A stretch of DNA of 64,000 bases from Candidatus Tumulicola sp. (lineage in GTDB: Bacteria; Vulcanimicrobiota; Vulcanimicrobiia; Eremiobacterales; Eremiobacteraceae): NCBI GenBank assembly GCA_035601835.1, contig DATNNM010000011.1:372001-436000 (forward strand), read 5' to 3'. The translations under genes and the position numbers were made by a program. The notes beneath the pieces were generated by a model. It made no database searches, was not told the origin of the DNA, and worked only from the letters and a program-made list of their open reading frames with translations. Of the stretch, positions 20,847 through 30,619 are shown one piece after another. Numbering within the stretch: position 1 is the stretch's first letter; each line of letters starts with the position of its first letter.

Positions 20847-21173
20847 ATGAGCACGTCGGCGATCTCGCTGGTCGAACAAGGTATGCGTTTCGCGCAAGCG
20901 CGCGCCGGCTTGCTCGCGGCGGACGTCGCAAACTCGGCCACGCCGGGGTTCGTGCCGCGCGATCTGACGCCGGCAATCGAACCGGGTCTTGAGTCCGGGG
21001 GCTTGCGTTTTGCCGCCGTGACGCAAGAACTGGCTTCGGGCGGACCGGCTGCCGGCCTCGAATACGCGATGGCCGCGACCGCGAAAAATTCCGTGACCTA
21101 TCGCGCGCTTGCGGATCAAGAACGCGCGATGCTGCGAGAATTGCGCACCGTCGCCGAAGAGTCGCGCCGATGA
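20847..21173 (+). CDS. flgB: Flagellar basal-body rod protein FlgB (short)
   Basis: A 108-residue proximal-rod protein. The N-terminal helix SLVEQGMRFAQARAGLLAADVANSATPGFVPRDL carries the rod-family A-x-N-x-A-N-x-x-T-P-G motif, and the C-terminal helix (NSVTYRALADQERAMLRELRTVA) is the matching coiled-coil partner. Typical FlgB is about 130 residues, so the middle is trimmed. ATG 20847 is chosen by homology; the frame stays open upstream. The stop overlaps the flgC start (ATGA). It is the first gene of the export/basal-body operon. Confidence 0.88.
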   Translation: MSTSAISLVEQGMRFAQARAGLLAADVANSATPGFVPRDLTPAIEPGLESGGLRFAAVTQELASGGPAAGLEYAMAATAKNSVTYRALADQERAMLRELRTVAEESRR

Positions 21174-21565
21174 TCGGACCGGAGTCCGCATTCGACATCG
21201 CGGCAAGCGGCATGGCCGCGCAGCGCATGCAAATGGATTTGATCGCCGACAATCTTGCCAACGCGAACACCGCGCGCATCGGAGCGCCGTTCCACGCGCG
21301 CGCGGCCGTGTTCGAGACCGCCTCGCCGTTCGCACAAGCCCTCGACTCCGCATCGCTTGACGCATTTGCGGTTTCGCTCGACGACGAGCCGCAAGTCGCG
21401 GGCGTGCGACTCGCCGGCCTCGTCGATGCCAGCGAGCAGGCGGTCGATCCGGTATCGCAGATGGTTGGGCTCGTCGCATCGGGGCGCGCATACGACGCGG
21501 ACATCGCCGTGCTGCAAGCCGCCAAACAAATGGAGATCGAGGCGGTCGACATCGAGAGGGCGTGA
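21170..21565 (+). CDS. flgC: Flagellar basal-body rod protein FlgC
   Basis: A 131-residue rod protein. The N-terminal motif is FDIAASGMAAQRMQMDLIADNLANANTARI (family: S-G-M-x-A-x-R-x-x-x-x-x-x-A-x-N-L-A-N), and the C-terminus has the usual DPVSQMVGLVASGRAYDADIAVLQAAKQM. Length is near normal (about 135-150). Coupled to flgB by ATGA, and 6 bp from fliE. Confidence 0.9.
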   Translation: MIGPESAFDIAASGMAAQRMQMDLIADNLANANTARIGAPFHARAAVFETASPFAQALDSASLDAFAVSLDDEPQVAGVRLAGLVDASEQAVDPVSQMVGLVASGRAYDADIAVLQAAKQMEIEAVDIERA

Positions 21566-21571
21566 GGCTGG

Positions 21572-21853
21572 ATGCTGACTTCGGGTATCGCACCGGATGC
21601 GATGTTCCAAGCGAGCGCTGGGGGGTTCCCGGAAGGGCGTAGCGGCGCGCAAAGTTTCGCCGCTGCGCTGGACGCGGTTGCCGGAGCGCTCGACGCGGCC
21701 GATGCGCAGGCCGGCGCGGTGGCGCTCGGTCGCGGCAGCGTCGCCGATGCCTCCGTCGCGCGTGCGAAGGCTGACGTGTTGCTCGAAATAGCGGCCGTGA
21801 CTGCATCGCGCGTGAGCGCGGCCGTCACAACGCTGCTGCAAACCCAGGTGTAG
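21572..21853 (+). CDS. fliE: Flagellar hook-basal body protein FliE
   Basis: A 93-residue adapter between the MS ring and the rod. The central and C-terminal part (SFAAALDAVAGALDAADAQAGAVALG, then ARAKADVLLEIAAVTASRVSAAVTTLLQTQV) follows the FliE pattern of an amphipathic helix and a final A-x-x-x-R-x-x-x-A-Y-x-x-x-x-x-M-x-V-type helix, though the terminal consensus is diverged. Size and place between flgC and fliF support the call. Confidence 0.85.
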   Translation: MLTSGIAPDAMFQASAGGFPEGRSGAQSFAAALDAVAGALDAADAQAGAVALGRGSVADASVARAKADVLLEIAAVTASRVSAAVTTLLQTQV

Positions 21854-21857
21854 AGCG

Positions 21858-23285
21858 ATGCTGGCGCGCCTGCCGCCGTCGTTGCCGCGCGTGCTGGAAC
21901 GATGCGTGGTATGGGTCCGACGGCGCAAGACTCCGGTCGGTGCTGGAGTCGTGGCCGCCGCGGCGTGTGCCGCCGCCATCATCGCGATAGCGCGCGGCAC
22001 GGCATTCGTGCCGCTCTTCGACGCGCCGCTGCACGCAACGCAGGCAGGTGAGGTCGCCCAGGCGCTGACGCTGTGGAACGAACCGTTTCAAACGGGTTCG
22101 CAGGGGACGCAAGTGTACGTGGCCGCGGGTCGGCGCAAGGATGTTCTCTTGAAGCTCGTCATGGCCGGTTTGCCCCACCGCTACGTGCCCACTACGGCCG
22201 ACGTTCTCCAGACCCCGGACGGGCCGCTCACTCCGCAAACGGTTGTAGACGATCGCCGCCGCTCGGGCATCGAGGGCGACTTGGTTGAAAGCTTGCGTCG
22301 CGTTGACGGAGTCGCGGACGCATCCGTCGTCATCGCGCCGGCGGCGGGCGATTTGTTCGCGGATCAAGCGCAGCGGACGCCGCCGAGCGCGAGCGTTCAG
22401 TTGATCGTTCAGCCGGGCGCGAACTTGTCCGCGAGTACCGTAGCCGGCGTCCGGCGCTTTGTCGCCGCGGCGTACCCCGGTCTCACGGAGGAGCGCGTCA
22501 CCGTGGTGGATGGCGCCGGCGCGGTGCTGAACGTCGTGGCAGATCGCTCCGCGTCAAAAGAGTTGCGCGTGCAAGGCGCGGTTCAAAGCGCGCTCGATGC
22601 CGTGCTCGGTTCCGGCGTCGCAGTCGTGCGCGTCAGCGTACGCGCGGCGCCCGGAGAGCACAGCGTGCAGACCACGCGGGTGACACCGCATGGGCTTCTT
22701 GACGCCGATACGGGGCGCGAGCGCGGCACCGAGAACGGTCGCAAGTTGGATAAGGAGCGCACCACTCGGCACTACGCTTACGATACGGTCGTCGAGCGTC
22801 GCACGTCGCCTCCCGATGCCATCGGGACGCTGTCGGTCGCCGTGTTCCTTGACGCCGCTCGTGTCGACTCGGGCAAGACGCAGACGATCGCCGCGCTCGT
22901 GCGAGCGGCCGCTGGAGCAGACCTCCAGGCCGGCGACGACGTGGTCGTGGAATCGGTCCCTTTCGCGCCACATGCTGCGGTGACGCTGACACCGGCGGCG
23001 CCGCGGCCCGTGCTCGTCCGCGCTATCCTGCCCGCGACCGCCGCCGTGGCGTTGACGTTGCTTGGTCTTTTTGCTTGGCCCCACGTCGCCGCTGCACGCC
23101 GCACGCCGCCCGTGGACGGGGAAACGGCGCGTTTGCGGGCCATGCTGGATCGGGAGTCACCGCATGCCGCGGCATACGTCCTGTCAAACGTGCCGCGCAC
23201 GACGCGCGAACGCGTGCTGCAATCGGCGAGCCCTGCGCGGCGCGCGACGATCGAAACGTGGCTGAGACGCGATCGACGTGCGTGA
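21858..23285 (+). CDS. fliF: Flagellar MS-ring protein FliF with FliG-like C-terminal tail
   Basis: A 475-residue inner-membrane ring protein (typical FliF 530-570). TM1 is at about 28-46. Ring-building motifs follow: FVPLFDAPLHATQAGEVAQAL, YVAAGRRKDVLLKLVMAGLPH, RRVDGVADASVVIAPAAGD and ASVQLIVQPGANLS. TM2 is at about 380-400 (ILPATAAVALTLLGLFAWP). Instead of the usual acidic FliG-binding tail, residues about 415-470 read LRAMLDRESPHAAAYVLSNV, then PRTTRERVLQSASPARRATI. This pattern (hP-x-x-x-A-x-x-L-x-x-x-P, then R-x-x-I-x-x-W) resembles the 'EHPQ' armadillo helices of FliG. No separate fliG follows. Its end overlaps fliH by 8 bp. Confidence 0.85.
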   Translation: MLARLPPSLPRVLERCVVWVRRRKTPVGAGVVAAAACAAAIIAIARGTAFVPLFDAPLHATQAGEVAQALTLWNEPFQTGSQGTQVYVAAGRRKDVLLKLVMAGLPHRYVPTTADVLQTPDGPLTPQTVVDDRRRSGIEGDLVESLRRVDGVADASVVIAPAAGDLFADQAQRTPPSASVQLIVQPGANLSASTVAGVRRFVAAAYPGLTEERVTVVDGAGAVLNVVADRSASKELRVQGAVQSALDAVLGSGVAVVRVSVRAAPGEHSVQTTRVTPHGLLDADTGRERGTENGRKLDKERTTRHYAYDTVVERRTSPPDAIGTLSVAVFLDAARVDSGKTQTIAALVRAAAGADLQAGDDVVVESVPFAPHAAVTLTPAAPRPVLVRAILPATAAVALTLLGLFAWPHVAAARRTPPVDGETARLRAMLDRESPHAAAYVLSNVPRTTRERVLQSASPARRATIETWLRRDRRA

Positions 23286-23790
23286 TGCGCGTTTCGAACC
23301 GCTTTGCCCGCGCAAACTCGTCGCCGCACGCATCGAGATCGAGCACGCGCGGGCCGAAACACCGGCTCAGGACGATCCCGGTCCGAACGCTCCAGCGCAG
23401 GCTACGCCAGATCCGCCGCCTGCGGATCCAGACCCGCCGCCGGTTGAGCTCGCCGAACTCGAAGACATCGCAACGCTCCGGCTTGAAGCCGCGCGCTTTG
23501 CGGGTATCGCTTGCGCCCGCGCAATGCGTCGTTCGCTCGCGCACTATCCGCGCCTCATCGATCAATTCGTGGACGATGCTCTGCGAGCGTGCGGCCGCCC
23601 GCGCAGCGCCGTAGTGCGACTCCATCCCAAGGACGCGAAGCACGCATCTGCTCGCCCCGGCGTGGACATCGTCGCGGACGACGCGCTGCAGCCCGGGGCA
23701 TGCGAGGTCGACGTCGCTGAAGGCAAGGTCGGCGCCTCGATCGAGCAACGCGCCGCTTGTCTGGCAATGGCCGCGAGCGAACATGCGTGA
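23278..23790 (+). CDS. fliH: FliH/YscL-family export ATPase regulator
   Basis: A 170-residue protein. Residues 25-65 form a Pro/Asp-rich stretch, followed by a helical segment (LEDIATLRLEAARFAGIACARAMRRSL) and a C-terminal domain with VVRLHPKDAKH and ADDALQPGACEVDVAEGKVGASIEQR. The last motif is typical of FliH/SctL: 'D-x-x-L-x-x-G-x-C-x-V-x-x-x-x-G-x-V-D-x-x-l-x-x-Q'. FliH binds FliI and tethers it to the export gate. It starts with GTG 23278 inside the end of fliF and overlaps fliI. Confidence 0.8.
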   Translation: MRDARFEPLCPRKLVAARIEIEHARAETPAQDDPGPNAPAQATPDPPPADPDPPPVELAELEDIATLRLEAARFAGIACARAMRRSLAHYPRLIDQFVDDALRACGRPRSAVVRLHPKDAKHASARPGVDIVADDALQPGACEVDVAEGKVGASIEQRAACLAMAASEHA

Positions 23791-25105
23791 CGTACCGCTG
23801 CGCTTCGACGCGGCGGACGGTTGGGTACGCACCGGCGTCGTCGAGTCGGTGGCGGCAGATCATCTCGTTGTGCGCGTGCCGGCGCTCCAGCCGGGCACGA
23901 TAGTTCTCGTCGCCCGCGACGCCGGCCGGCCGCTGCTCGCGCGCGTGCATTCTATCGACATGCGCGGCGCCCACTGCACGCCGCTCGAACGCGCCGACAG
24001 AGTCAGCGCGGGCGCCCGCGCGACCTCGCAGCTTGCAAGACTCGGCGCGTACGTCGGACCGTCGCTTCTCGGCCGCGCCGCCGACGCGTGGGGTCGCAGC
24101 AACGCGCCGGGGACCAAACTCGTCGCCTCGATCGAGCCGCCGCCGCTGCCGCTGCATGAGCGCGCTCCCATCAAGGCCATGCTGCGAACCGGGATAGCGG
24201 CTATGGACGCGTTCGCGCCGCTGGGCTACGGCCAGCGCATCGCGCTCACCGCGGGCGCAGGCGTCGGCAAGACGAGCTTGCTGCGCCGGATCGTGGAGCG
24301 CGCGGAGGTGGACGCTCGCGTCGTGGCGCTCGTAGGGGAACGCGCTCGCGAAGCCGCGGAGACGATCGGACGCCTCGAGCGCTCCAGCCGGTGGTCCACG
24401 ACCAGCATCTACAGCGCGACCTCCGACTCGGGCCCGATGGAGCGTTATGGCGCAGCGCAAAGCGCAGCTGCGCAAGCCGAGTGGCTGTGCGCGCGGGGTC
24501 GTCGCGTGCTGCTCGTGTTGGATTCGCTGACGCGCGTCGCATCCGCGTGGCGCGAGATGGCGCTGGCCGCCGGCGAGCCGCCCGCGCAACGCGGCCACCC
24601 TCCGTCGCTCGTCGGCGCGCTGGCGCGGCTCGTCGAAAGAGCGGGTGCGCGCGCTTCGGGCGGTTCCATCACCGCGGTCTTCTCCGTGCTCGTCGAAGCG
24701 GACGACCCATTCGAACCCGTCACGGACACGCTGCGCGCGTTGCTGGACGGACACGTCGCGCTCTCCCGAAAATTGGCGGATGCCGGACTCTTTCCGGCGA
24801 TCGATGTGCTGCGCAGCATCAGTCGCTCGATGCCCGACATCGCGACGCCGGCGCATCAACAGGCCGCGACGGTCGTGCGCCACGCGCTGGCCGCTCTGGA
24901 ACAAGCGGAAGATCTCTTCGCGATCGGGGCGTTTCGTCCAGGTGCGGATCCTTGGCTGGACGCGTGCGTTGCGGCGCGCCCCGACATCGAAAGGCTGATC
25001 TTCGACGGCGCAGGCACCGAGAGCTCACCCGACCCGGTCGCCGAGCTTGCGGATATCGCCGGCCGCCTCCAGGCCGCCACTGGACCATCGCGCACTGCTG
25101 CGTGA
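23783..25105 (+). CDS. fliI: Flagellar/type III export ATPase FliI
   Basis: A 440-residue F1-beta-like ATPase of the export apparatus. The N-terminal beta domain (about 1-85) is followed by the core: P-loop TAGAGVGKTSLLRR (about 157-170), VALVGERAREAAE, SDSGPMERYGAAQSAAAQAEW, Walker B VLLVLDSLTRVASAWREM and the export-ATPase motif GEPPAQRGHPPSLVGALARLVER. The C-terminal part has FDGHVALSRKLADAG-type sequence (DGHVALSRKLADAGLFPAID). All catalytic parts are present and length is normal. It overlaps fliH by 8 bp; no fliJ follows. Confidence 0.93.
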   Translation: MRDVPLRFDAADGWVRTGVVESVAADHLVVRVPALQPGTIVLVARDAGRPLLARVHSIDMRGAHCTPLERADRVSAGARATSQLARLGAYVGPSLLGRAADAWGRSNAPGTKLVASIEPPPLPLHERAPIKAMLRTGIAAMDAFAPLGYGQRIALTAGAGVGKTSLLRRIVERAEVDARVVALVGERAREAAETIGRLERSSRWSTTSIYSATSDSGPMERYGAAQSAAAQAEWLCARGRRVLLVLDSLTRVASAWREMALAAGEPPAQRGHPPSLVGALARLVERAGARASGGSITAVFSVLVEADDPFEPVTDTLRALLDGHVALSRKLADAGLFPAIDVLRSISRSMPDIATPAHQQAATVVRHALAALEQAEDLFAIGAFRPGADPWLDACVAARPDIERLIFDGAGTESSPDPVAELADIAGRLQAATGPSRTAA

Positions 25106-25141
25106 TATAAAGGCGAACAACGCCGCTTCTAGGAGACGCAT

Positions 25142-25843
25142 ATGGGCATCGCGCCGACCGATCTCGCGAGCACGCTGCGAAGCTCGCAACCAGGCTGGAG
25201 GGCGCCGGTCGCGGCGCAACTCGACCTATCCCACTCAAGCGAAATAGCGGATACGCTGGAAGAAGCAGGACTTCAAGGTACACCACGCAGCGTCAGCGGC
25301 GGGTTCGCGACGCTCATCGCCGACCTGGAGAAGCGCTTTGAAAGCCTCTCGCAACAGCTGGCTAAAACGTTGCAGCGTTTGAGCGCCAGGTTTGCGGCGC
25401 CGCCGCCGCGCGCGCTCGAAAGCACGGCGGCGCGTCAGGCGCAATCGACCGTCAGTCCGTACGACGGGCTTATCCGAGCCGCCGCCGAGCGCCACGCGCT
25501 CGATCCGGCGCTGCTCGCCGCCGTCGCGCGGCGCGAATCCGCTTTCGACCCGACGGCCGTTTCCAAGGCCGGCGCACAAGGGCTGATGCAATTGATGCCC
25601 GACACGGCAAAATCGCTGGGCGTCTCGGACGCGTTTGATCCAGCGCAGAACGTCGAGGGCGGCGCCAAGCTGCTGCGCGGGCTCATCGATCAGTTCGGCG
25701 GCCGGCTCGATCTCGCGCTGGCCGCCTACAACGCCGGCCCTGGCGCAGTCCAGCGCTATGGGGGTGTCCCGCCATATCAGGAAACGCGGGCGTACGTGCG
25801 CGACGTCCTCGCCGACTACCGGGCAAAGGCTCTCGTCGGCTAA
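25142..25843 (+). CDS. Lytic transglycosylase (SLT domain) without signal peptide
   Basis: A 233-residue protein. Residues 1-100 are polar with a short coiled coil (TLIADLEKRFESLSQQLAKTLQRL) and no Sec signal. Residues about 105-228 are an SLT domain: YDGLIRAAAERHALDPALLA, catalytic Glu about 132 in ARRESAFDP, GAQGLMQLMPDTAKSLGV, DPAQNVEGGAKLL, LALAAYNAGPGAV. It cleaves the glycan strand of peptidoglycan. RBS AGGAG precedes the ATG. Placed 36 bp after fliI, it is probably exported by the flagellar/type III apparatus to open the wall for the rod, like FlgJ; that export route is inference. Confidence 0.85.
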   Translation: MGIAPTDLASTLRSSQPGWRAPVAAQLDLSHSSEIADTLEEAGLQGTPRSVSGGFATLIADLEKRFESLSQQLAKTLQRLSARFAAPPPRALESTAARQAQSTVSPYDGLIRAAAERHALDPALLAAVARRESAFDPTAVSKAGAQGLMQLMPDTAKSLGVSDAFDPAQNVEGGAKLLRGLIDQFGGRLDLALAAYNAGPGAVQRYGGVPPYQETRAYVRDVLADYRAKALVG

Positions 25844-29294: not shown

Positions 29295-29981
29295 ATGTCA
29301 AAGAATCGGCCCAAAAAGCCCGGATCGGGGACGCCCGCTGCCGGGCGCCTCATCGGCTTGCTGCTCGCCGCCGCGGTCGTGATCACGCTGGGCGTCCTCA
29401 TCTACCTCACGGTCGCAGCCCAAAACCGAAGCGCGACCCCGGCGCCGGCGACACCGTCGCCCATGCAGTCCATGGCGATGCCTGTTCCGCACTCGAGCGT
29501 CGTGATCGGCGTTCTCGTCAAATCCCAAGGCAATCCGGGTCACGACAAAAAGGACCCGAGCGAAGTCGCCGGCTTCCAATATAACTCCGATCCTCCGACC
29601 TCCGGCATGCACCTGGAGCGCTTCTCCGATCAGCTCTTCGCGGACAGCCCGCTGCCCAAGTACATCCAAGTCCATTTGCTCGAACACGGCAACGTGCTGC
29701 TGCAATATAACTGCGCGTGCCCGGAGGTCGCGGCCGCGCTCAAGGATATCGCCGGAGCGTACGACTACCGGCTGCTGCCCTCAAAAGCCAACCTGCCGAC
29801 GCCCGACGACGTCCACGTCATCGAAGAGCAAGGCACGGGCGTGATCCTGGCGCCCTACCCAGCGATGAAATCGAAGATCGCGGTCACCGCGTGGACGCAT
29901 CTGCTGACGCTGGACAAGGTGGATCGCGCGCAGATCATGCGCTTCATCAACGCGTACTTGCACAATCCCGTCACCGGGTGA
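29295..29981 (+). CDS. DUF3105 membrane-anchored protein (copy 1)
   Basis: A 228-residue protein: basic N-terminus, one membrane segment (about 18-42, IGLLLAAAVVITLGVLIYLTV), a Pro/Thr-rich linker, then an extracytoplasmic DUF3105 domain (about 85-225). Shared motifs with the next gene are YNSDPPTSG near 95, PLPKYIQVHLLEHGNVLLQY near 120, a Cys pair in NCACP, VILAPYP and AVTAWTHLLTLDKVD. DUF3105 function is not known to me; the conserved His and Cys could bind a metal. Fourteen bases separate it from the second copy. Confidence 0.8.
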   Translation: MSKNRPKKPGSGTPAAGRLIGLLLAAAVVITLGVLIYLTVAAQNRSATPAPATPSPMQSMAMPVPHSSVVIGVLVKSQGNPGHDKKDPSEVAGFQYNSDPPTSGMHLERFSDQLFADSPLPKYIQVHLLEHGNVLLQYNCACPEVAAALKDIAGAYDYRLLPSKANLPTPDDVHVIEEQGTGVILAPYPAMKSKIAVTAWTHLLTLDKVDRAQIMRFINAYLHNPVTG

Positions 29982-29995
29982 CGAAAGGCGTGCCC

Positions 29996-30619
29996 ATGCG
30001 CTTCCAGTTCCTCTCATGCGCGATCGTCGCATCGGCGGCGTTACTGACGGGTTGTTCGAAAGGCGGCGCCGATTCGTCAACTGCAACACCGGCCGCCACG
30101 GCGAGCGCGACCGGTTCGGCGGCGCAAGCCGCCCCCGCTGTGGTACCGGGGACGCACTACCCGGCGCAAGGACACAAGCATTTCGCCGAAGGGGAGTCCA
30201 CCGCGTTCCATTATAACTCCGACCCTCCGACTTCGGGATCGCATAAAGAATTGTTCAACGACACGTTCGTGAGCCCGACGCCGCTGCCGAAGTTCCTGCA
30301 GGTTCATCTGCTCGAGCACGGCAACGTGCTGCTGCAATACAATTGCGAATGTCCGGACGTCGCGGCCGCGTTGGCGCAGATCGCGTACGAATACGATGCG
30401 CAGCAGGTCCCGTCAAACCATCTGCAGCCCCTGCCCGCGGACGTTCAAGCCGCCGAAGAAGGAGGTCTCGCAGTGATCGTGGCGCCGTATTCCGGGATGA
30501 AACATAAGATCGCGCTCACCGCGTGGACGCGCTTGGCGACGCTTGACCGCGTCGACAAATCGAAAATCGAAGGGTTCATCAACGCCTACCTGCACAACGC
30601 CGCTAATCTCAATCAATGA
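29996..30619 (+). CDS. DUF3105 lipoprotein (copy 2)
   Basis: A 207-residue lipoprotein: MRFQFLSCAIVASAALLTGC with a lipobox (LTGC, Cys about 20), an Ala/Thr-rich tether and a DUF3105 domain closely matching copy 1 (YNSDPPTSGSH, LPKFLQVHLLEHGNVLLQY, NCECP, IVAPYSGM, ALTAWTRLATLDRVD, FINAYLHN). The pair looks like a tandem duplication in which one copy took a membrane anchor and the other a lipid anchor. The frame is open upstream, but ATG 29996 starts the signal peptide. The stop overlaps the phosphoesterase start (ATGA), tying the DUF3105 pair to that enzyme. Confidence 0.82.
   Translation: MRFQFLSCAIVASAALLTGCSKGGADSSTATPAATASATGSAAQAAPAVVPGTHYPAQGHKHFAEGESTAFHYNSDPPTSGSHKELFNDTFVSPTPLPKFLQVHLLEHGNVLLQYNCECPDVAAALAQIAYEYDAQQVPSNHLQPLPADVQAAEEGGLAVIVAPYSGMKHKIALTAWTRLATLDRVDKSKIEGFINAYLHNAANLNQ

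Follow-up and report, generated by a model that had tools for sequence, protein, structure and literature searches.

The DNA considered here is a 64,000-nucleotide window from Candidatus Tumulicola sp. (NCBI GenBank assembly GCA_035601835.1, contig DATNNM010000011.1, positions 372,001 to 436,000; positions below are those of the window), in which 20847-25843 hold an operon of flagellar, or type III export, genes: flgB, flgC, fliE, fliF, fliH, fliI and a lytic transglycosylase gene (Table 1). The genome (G000; the window lies on its contig C11) is that of a soil bacterium of the phylum Ca. Eremiobacterota/WPS-2 and comprises 2.57 Mb in 18 contigs, with a completeness of 97.86%. Gene set and coordinates agree with an initial annotation made from the letters of the window alone. 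Its further observations that FlgB and FliF are shorter than usual (108 and 475 amino acids (aa) vs 138 and 552 in E. coli), that fliG is absent between fliF and fliH and that fliJ is absent after fliI are all borne out in the operon. The tight overlap described there applies to three of the six junctions (overlaps of 4, 8 and 8 bases); two of the others are gaps of 6 and 4 bases, and 36 bases separate fliI from the transglycosylase gene.

Table 1. Features of the operon in the window and the evidence for each (ORF, open reading frame; E, E-value).
Feature	Position	Strand	Evidence
flgB-like proximal rod protein, short, 108 aa	20847..21173	+	ORF; weak NCBIfam FlgB match; FlgB profile from relatives
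flgC rod protein, 131 aa	21170..21565	+	Above cut-off with Pfam Flg_bb_rod and Flg_bbr_C; under cut-off with TIGR01395 (E 4e-20)
fliE, MS-ring/rod junction protein, 93 aa	21572..21853	+	PF02049 E 6e-4, 20.3 bits vs cut-off 22.4; TIGR00205 E 1e-3, under cut-off
fliF, membrane/supramembrane (MS)-ring protein, 475 aa	21858..23285	+	PF01514 96.7 bits, PF08345 55.9 bits; best Foldseek matches are FliF
Predicted FliG_M unit at FliF C-terminus, residues 420-474	23115..23279	+	Profile, hhalign, Pfam in relatives, AlphaFold2
fliH, ATPase regulator, 170 aa	23278..23790	+	PF02108 25.7 bits, cut-off 24.1
fliI, export ATPase, 440 aa	23783..25105	+	PF00006 218 bits; T3SS_ATPase_C 49 bits; best solved match is flagellar ATPase 2dpy
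Lytic transglycosylase, SLT domain	25142..25843	+	PF01464 113.6 bits; best NCBIfam match (E 2.5e-28, under its cut-off) is BB0259, a flagellar lytic transglycosylase

No Pfam match was obtained for FlgB, and the NCBIfam FlgB model reaches only E 7e-8 over residues 12-43, far under its cut-off. A FlgB profile built from five relatives and E. coli matches both ends of the protein, and FlgB-like proteins lie upstream of flgC in 9 of the 11 other loci of the window's family examined. FliF presents hydrophobic segments at about residues 24-54 and 384-413 with the periplasmic region between them, and its AlphaFold2 model has a mean predicted local distance difference test (pLDDT) value of 82.7 and a predicted template modelling score of 0.49. 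FliI carries the P-loop AGAGVGKT at residue 157. The SLT gene occupies the spot where relatives outside the window's class carry a gene of about 150 aa, identified as FliJ in the sole one tested (G005; PF02050, 59.5 bits), followed by an SLT gene.

Together with two further clusters the operon makes up a system that also occurs in other genomes. The cluster on contig C12 encodes a small ORF, an FlgE/F/G-type protein, two SpoA proteins, FliP, FliQ, FliR, FlhB, FlhA, an HD-domain protein, SecD and SecF. FliP (224.5 bits), FliQ (55.8 bits), FliR (49.3 bits) and FlhB (226 bits) are all over their Pfam cut-offs, SecD and SecF are likewise confirmed by Pfam, and FlhA is the single genome-wide match of its kind (709 bits). 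FlhB carries an NPTH motif at residue 267, and FlhA contains the stretch DGAGKFVRGDA, which we take to belong to the FHIPEP signature. The 246-aa FlgE/F/G-type protein is divergent and has no rod domains. The five membrane proteins of an export gate and the ATPase, by which a type III export machine is recognised, are hence all encoded in this genome, and the initial annotation's proposal to look for flhA/B, fliP/Q/R and fliM/N genome-wide ends with each of them found in the other clusters, fliM/N as SpoA-type genes. On contig C16, an FlgF-type and an FlgG-type protein are encoded together with a small protein of FlgJ type and a sigma factor of FliA/WhiG type; the latter two score under their cut-offs (17.4 vs 25.1 bits for the rod-binding domain, 162 vs 189.6 bits for the sigma factor). 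In nine further loci (L192-L200) flgF and flgG are again grouped with the sigma factor gene and, often, a small flgJ-like gene; flgF is uncalled in L196 and flgG in L197.

A conserved protein of about 100 aa was also seen by the sigma factor (L009 795-1079; L192 7280-7597; L193 10394-10708; L194 9254-9565; L195 9349-9654; L197 6827-7138). The two tested gave no Pfam match; from where it is encoded, the protein may be an anti-sigma factor or a chaperone.

According to the initial annotation, no switch or motor part accompanies the operon within the window, and a set of fliG, fliM, motA/B and flagellin elsewhere in the genome would make it a normal flagellum. For whole genes the first statement is true of the window; the two SpoA proteins on contig C12 are of FliM/FliN type and a FliG_M unit is fused to FliF (see below). 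Genome-wide searches for FliG_C, Flagellin_N, MotB_plug and FlgI (P-ring) returned no match in G000 and none in 14 of 14 genomes of the window's family (MotA, whose family also matches ExbB, was for that reason left unsearched, and FlgH was not searched), and the same searches were positive in known flagellated controls and in other members of the class. Rod-type C-terminal domains (Flg_bbr_C) number three in G000 (flgC-, flgF- and flgG-type), plus one 15-bit match under the cut-off; therefore no FlgE hook or FlgK junction protein is recognised there by the rod-domain search (FlgD, FlgL and FliD were not searched for). FlhA is present in 13 of the 14 family genomes. FliO-sized and FliJ genes were not seen in operons of this class. 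An assembly gap hiding the missing parts is ruled out by the completeness of the assembly together with the agreement of all 14 family genomes.

The C-terminus of the window's FliF is, as judged from sequence and modelled structure, a piece of FliG, its middle domain, and topology places it on the cytosolic side. Such a tail is present in the last 55-65 residues of 68 of 70 collected FliF sequences (a set that includes pieces or repeats of one gene), the other two ending elsewhere. With Pfam FliG_M (PF14841, cut-off 25), the tails of three out of three other class members score above the cut-off (28.2-30.9 bits); two of these, scanned as whole proteins, give 26.1 and 24.3 bits. A genome-wide FliG_M search found matches at FliF places in many genomes of the class. 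When a profile of 36 tails was compared with PDB sequences, the ten best of 18 matches were FliG, with E 2.8e-6 for the first and E under 1e-3 for nine of the ten. The hhalign alignment of tail and FliG is placed around the EHPQ motif with E 7e-6, or E 4e-5 with 62 tails (the 70 minus eight dropped by a motif filter, six with a variant motif and two without the tail). AlphaFold2 predicts four helices at 420-474 of the full FliF (pLDDT 87-96 over 421-470), four helices are also predicted for the tail alone, and Foldseek places FliG_M among the most probable partners of the latter (4qrm, 0.8 Å over 48 columns, probability 0.99). The tail makes up 55 of the 475 residues and contains 19 of the 94 invariant or nearly invariant columns of FliF. 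In flagella the EHPQR loop of FliG sits at the FliM contact (PMC7355467). The corresponding loop of the tails, which reads EPPH, ESPH and ELPQ among others, is partly kept.

Two other identities were considered for the tail. An ordinary FliG-binding helix is ruled out: eight canonical FliF tails from other class members gave no match in the profile comparison to FliG, and the eight FliF read outside the class do end in a canonical-looking helix of that kind. The other is MgtE: MgtE_N matches weakly, and MgtE appears among the Foldseek matches of the tail together with chain B of a FliF-YlxF model, but the sequence-profile matches are FliG.

A contig scan with an alignment of this FliF type and two peptide patterns yielded 42 loci from 252 pattern matches, 36 of them labelled Ca. 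Eremiobacterota or Eremiobacteria and six otherwise (two Rhodospirillales metagenome-assembled genomes, two 'bacterium' and two 'uncultured bacterium'). Across 149 genomes of the phylum, matches were found for Flg_bbr_C in 145, FlhA in 138, FliG_C in 76, MotB_plug in 59, FlgI in 56 and flagellin in 68 at E<=0.001 (61 over the cut-off). A search with this FliF type gave matches at E<=1e-30 in 114 genomes, namely 103 of the 117 in the class (some of these matches being fragments or in two pieces) and 11 outside it, which score lower (107-159 bits) and were taken as other FliF types. FliG occurs in 49 of the 117, together with this FliF in 45 and alone in 4; this FliF stands alone in 58 and neither is found in 10. 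After setting aside G031, G068 and G119 (61-86% complete; flagellin, FlgI or MotB present), 55 class genomes remain with this FliF and no FliG_C, MotB, FlgI or above-cut-off flagellin. In seven genomes of genus 14 the flagellin matches are the weakest (E 1e-5 to 4e-4); these genomes were treated as flagellin-negative, being presumably the seven below the cut-off. Flg_bbr_C matches number three in 45 of the 55, two in 4, one in 3, four in 2 and nine in 1; among the 45 class genomes with both FliG and this FliF they number eight in 28 and take other values (3 to 11) in 17. Ratios of nonsynonymous to synonymous divergence (dN/dS) fall between 0.06 and 0.25 in 21 pairwise comparisons (13 from the window's family, one of the 21 being the neighbouring HD gene), at large synonymous differences (0.42-0.59) and with ORFs taken from the first start codon. 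G034 holds two copies of the machine (contigs C62 and C18) with FliG also present, and G095 has three FliF matches.

The cultured relative Vulcanimicrobium alpinum WC8-2 (G118) carries, at 2,790,542-2,812,847, flgC, fliE, fliF, fliH, fliI, SLT, a fliK-like gene, flgX, spoA1, fliN, fliP, metF, fliQ, fliR, flhB and flhA; flgB was not identified in this locus. Its FliF bears the tail, its genome has three rod-type matches, and the phylum-wide searches found no FliG_C, flagellin, MotB or FlgI in it. Negative staining of V. alpinum is reported to show no flagella, and the organism to have no flagellin gene and to move by type IV pili (PMC9758169). With its near-complete gene set, this strain makes the role of the machine accessible to imaging and gene removal.

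Two features of the loci of families f1 (the window's own), f2 and f3 were noted in passing: in the loci read, metF (MTHFR) separates fliP from fliQ in f3, and flhA is followed by secD-secF in all three families (coordinates for both: L061 7753-8655, G118 2802211-2803089; L006 15199-18508; L119 17300-19502). Two FliK-like proteins tested had no Pfam match.

Comparison of gene order across relatives, also proposed in the initial annotation, brings out fliG-bearing operons of much the same order outside the class: flgB flgC fliE fliF fliG fliH fliI, the gene of about 150 aa, SLT, a fliK-like gene, an flgE-like gene of about 272 aa, fliM, fliN (sometimes two), an ORF of about 130-250 aa, fliP fliQ fliR flhB flhA. 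This sister operon was read in G005, G011, G136, G137 and G140. G001 and G003 have it divided between two loci, G007 and G143 gave parts of it, G145 has it with flgC and fliE unrecognised, and just flhA and flhB were seen in G014. Some genes at the ends fall outside the stretches read, a number of the fliR and of the genes of about 150 aa are named from their position only, and G012 is not included. In ordinary flagellar operons (G008, G088, G084) the interval from fliI to fliM holds flgD, a long flgE, motA and motB. Sixteen genomes outside the class have FliG and no flagellin (ten of them examined at operon level); none of the 16 has FlgI, 14 lack MotB_plug, and the other two, G001 and G002, match MotB_plug weakly (27-28 bits). 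In G011 and G136 the fliG-bearing form is found alongside flagellin, MotB and FlgI.

A 141-aa FliG-like protein lies between fliG and fliF in G140 (L183 13867-14292); by eye its end resembles the FliG-binding helix of FliF, and it is possibly a spacer or an intermediate. Outside the class, G005, G011, G014 and G133-G140 are large genomes (5-8.4 Mb) with 7-9 FlhA matches each, and so may hold several type III systems.

An FlhA tree of 60 rows unites the machine's FlhA from f1, f2 and f3 in a single clade (23 rows, 100/100). A 43-row tree places this type (14 rows, 100/100) as sister to the fliG-bearing type (12 rows, 100/99), the two joined in 26 rows at 100/100; the canonical flagellar clade is separate (10 rows, 100/100) and the three SctV references fall outside. 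NCBIfam scores the window genome's FlhA at 676 bits as FlhA vs 534 as SctV, both under the cut-offs. With long branches to the references, midpoint rooting and four outside FlhA only, independence from injectisomes is supported, not proven.

Taken together, we hold it very probable that the three clusters jointly encode a functional, non-motile, flagellum-derived type III protein-export machine that is old within the phylum. The initial annotation had offered either a non-motile export machine or a minimal flagellum; empty genome-wide searches for fliG, flagellin and MotB and the full export gate encoded outside the window favour the first alternative. In the mechanism we propose, FliF would form an inner-membrane ring around the export gate and its FliG_M tail would take over the joint made by FliG in flagella, holding a ring or pods of SpoA; since the tail would supply this joint, a FliG gene would no longer be needed. 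FliH/FliI and the proton motive force would feed substrates into the gate, the transglycosylase would open the cell wall and the short rod would serve as conduit.

Several observations weigh against this reading or against parts of it. The window's own tail scores 17.2 bits with FliG_M, below the cut-off and about equal to MgtE_N, a related fold (18.4 bits); FliG_M at E<=0.001 was found in just 4 of the 14 family genomes (at places not listed), G000 not among them, and all tail-only Foldseek matches have E-values of 0.5 or worse. Neither of the two SpoA1 tested in the class shows a FliM middle domain by Pfam, a domain present in the FliM of the fliG-bearing form (145 bits, one tested), and the partner of the tail is therefore uncertain. 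None of the three secretins of G000 lies near the three clusters, which bears on the outer-membrane exit, and a scan of the sequence preceding twelve starts gave no match to a simple sigma-28 consensus. Ten of the 55 genomes do not have three rod-type matches, 14 of the 117 class genomes lack this FliF at E<=1e-30, and one in-frame stop occurs in each of five FliF matches (G064, G065, G067 and G068, all of genus g21, and G022 of the window's family). The stops and the missing matches imply that the machine is dispensable or broken (or misassembled) in places. Most members of genus g21 have FliG and flagellin.

The same stops and missing matches would be expected of a decaying, functionless relic of a lost flagellum, as would the lack of a motor or filament match in G000, the shortening of FlgB (to about 72 aa in several f2/f3 loci) and the FliO-sized and FliJ genes not seen in class operons. 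We consider such a relic unlikely. The set persists across the class, with three rod-type matches in 45 of the 55 genomes without motility markers; dN/dS is low throughout the comparisons above; the machine stands beside FliG in 45 genomes; and the FliF tail holds a fifth of the constrained columns in about a ninth of the residues. An injectisome-type (SctV clade) system delivering effectors into other cells would share the lack of a FliG gene, the SpoA proteins and the transglycosylase, and the best NCBIfam match of FliH is HrpE/YscL, though weak (E 1e-4). Against it, the FlhA groups with Eremiobacterota FlhA and not with the three SctV references and scores higher as FlhA, the rod genes are flagellar and no secretin lies near the clusters (needle, tip and translocon genes were not searched for), which makes this account very improbable. 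That a minimal or divergent flagellum still moves the cell with an unrecognised filament and stator, as the retained rod proteins and FliA/WhiG-type sigma factor might suggest, is likewise very improbable, given that no stator, hook or filament is recognised, that the FliG_C, flagellin, MotB_plug and FlgI searches work in flagellated controls and class members, and that V. alpinum, with nearly the same set, is reported without flagella and moving by type IV pili (PMC9758169).

As to the origin of the export machine, we lean, by a little, towards the view that a non-flagellar type III machine arose within the phylum from a second flagellum, separately from injectisomes and from that of Myxococcales (the latter compared by description), rod-tipped and with its function kept through repeated losses of the flagellum. 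Both steps would survive: a stator-less, fliG-bearing form outside the class and, in the class, a fliG cut to its FliM-binding domain and fused to FliF. A duplication of the flagellar set early in the phylum would have given the second copy, which would first have lost stator, hook and filament; in the class, a deletion or fusion may then have eliminated FliJ, the FliO-sized gene and all of FliG but the FliG_M now carried by FliF, and the machine would since have been mostly vertically inherited. Among the literature matches listed, with preprints and most subscription journals outside the scope, no account of such a machine in this phylum was found. Debate over 'What use is half a flagellum' mostly draws on injectisomes or relics. 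In this phylum a full flagellum, a FliG form without stator or filament and a FliF-tail form all seem to be present, in operons of much alike order.

Elsewhere in the window, 29295-29981 and 29996-30619 encode adjacent, seemingly paralogous proteins with the common stretches NSDPPTSG and VHLLEHGNVLLQYNC, and on the minus strand at 32563-39449 genes for proteins of about 220 aa (three) and 750-784 aa (two) alternate and look like repeated small/large pairs.

Among known systems, the machine resembles the flagellar basal body and export apparatus of E. coli and Salmonella in FliF, FliE, FlgB, FlgC, FlgF, FlgG, FliH, FliI, FliP, FliQ, FliR, FlhB, FlhA, the SpoA proteins and the FliA-type sigma factor. 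Unlike a flagellum, it gives no match to FliG_C, MotB, FlgI or flagellin, lacks a recognised hook and does not have fliI followed by fliJ; its FliF has the FliG_M tail and a transglycosylase gene lies within the operon. With injectisomes it shares the export gate, ATPase, SpoA proteins and lack of a FliG gene; it differs in the position of FlhA outside the three SctV references, the flagellar rod genes and the absence of a secretin near the clusters. A 2025 survey reports rotor proteins without a filament in 11% of its non-motile species and leaves their role open (PMC12199754).

The non-flagellar type III secretion system of Myxococcales is described as flagellum-derived, conserved and vertically inherited, without FliG, MotAB or a secretin of its own, and is said to lack FlgB, FlgC and FliE (Abby and Rocha 2012, PMC3459982). 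By that description the present machine resembles it in having no FliG or MotB match and no secretin near its clusters, would share its derivation, conservation and mostly vertical inheritance, and differs in keeping FlgC (above cut-off), FliE and FlgB (weaker matches) and FlgF/FlgG.

The fusion itself is not unprecedented, since one is known from Chlamydia. In the non-flagellated Chlamydiaceae the cytosolic region of FliF is reported to be homologous to the M region of FliG and proposed to meet the SpoA protein SctQ (Bergeron 2016, PMC4768692). As there, FliF here has a FliG_M cytosolic tail (the window's own being below the Pfam cut-off) and no FliG gene accompanies it; the FliF of the present machine is longer, and it is accompanied by most of the basal-body set. 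FliF-FliG fusions have also been engineered in Salmonella, one of which, without much of FliG_N, still forms C rings, though smaller (PMC4768692, PMC7355467), and in Vibrio (PMC11481574). The Salmonella C rings and the natural fusion of Chlamydia make an adaptor role of the tail more credible, and the natural fusion found here suggests what the minimum role of FliG in export may be, namely a link between the MS ring and the SpoA ring, and what portion of FliG suffices for it. The engineered proteins join the ring protein to FliG as in the window's FliF, but keep the torque domain of FliG and work in flagella.

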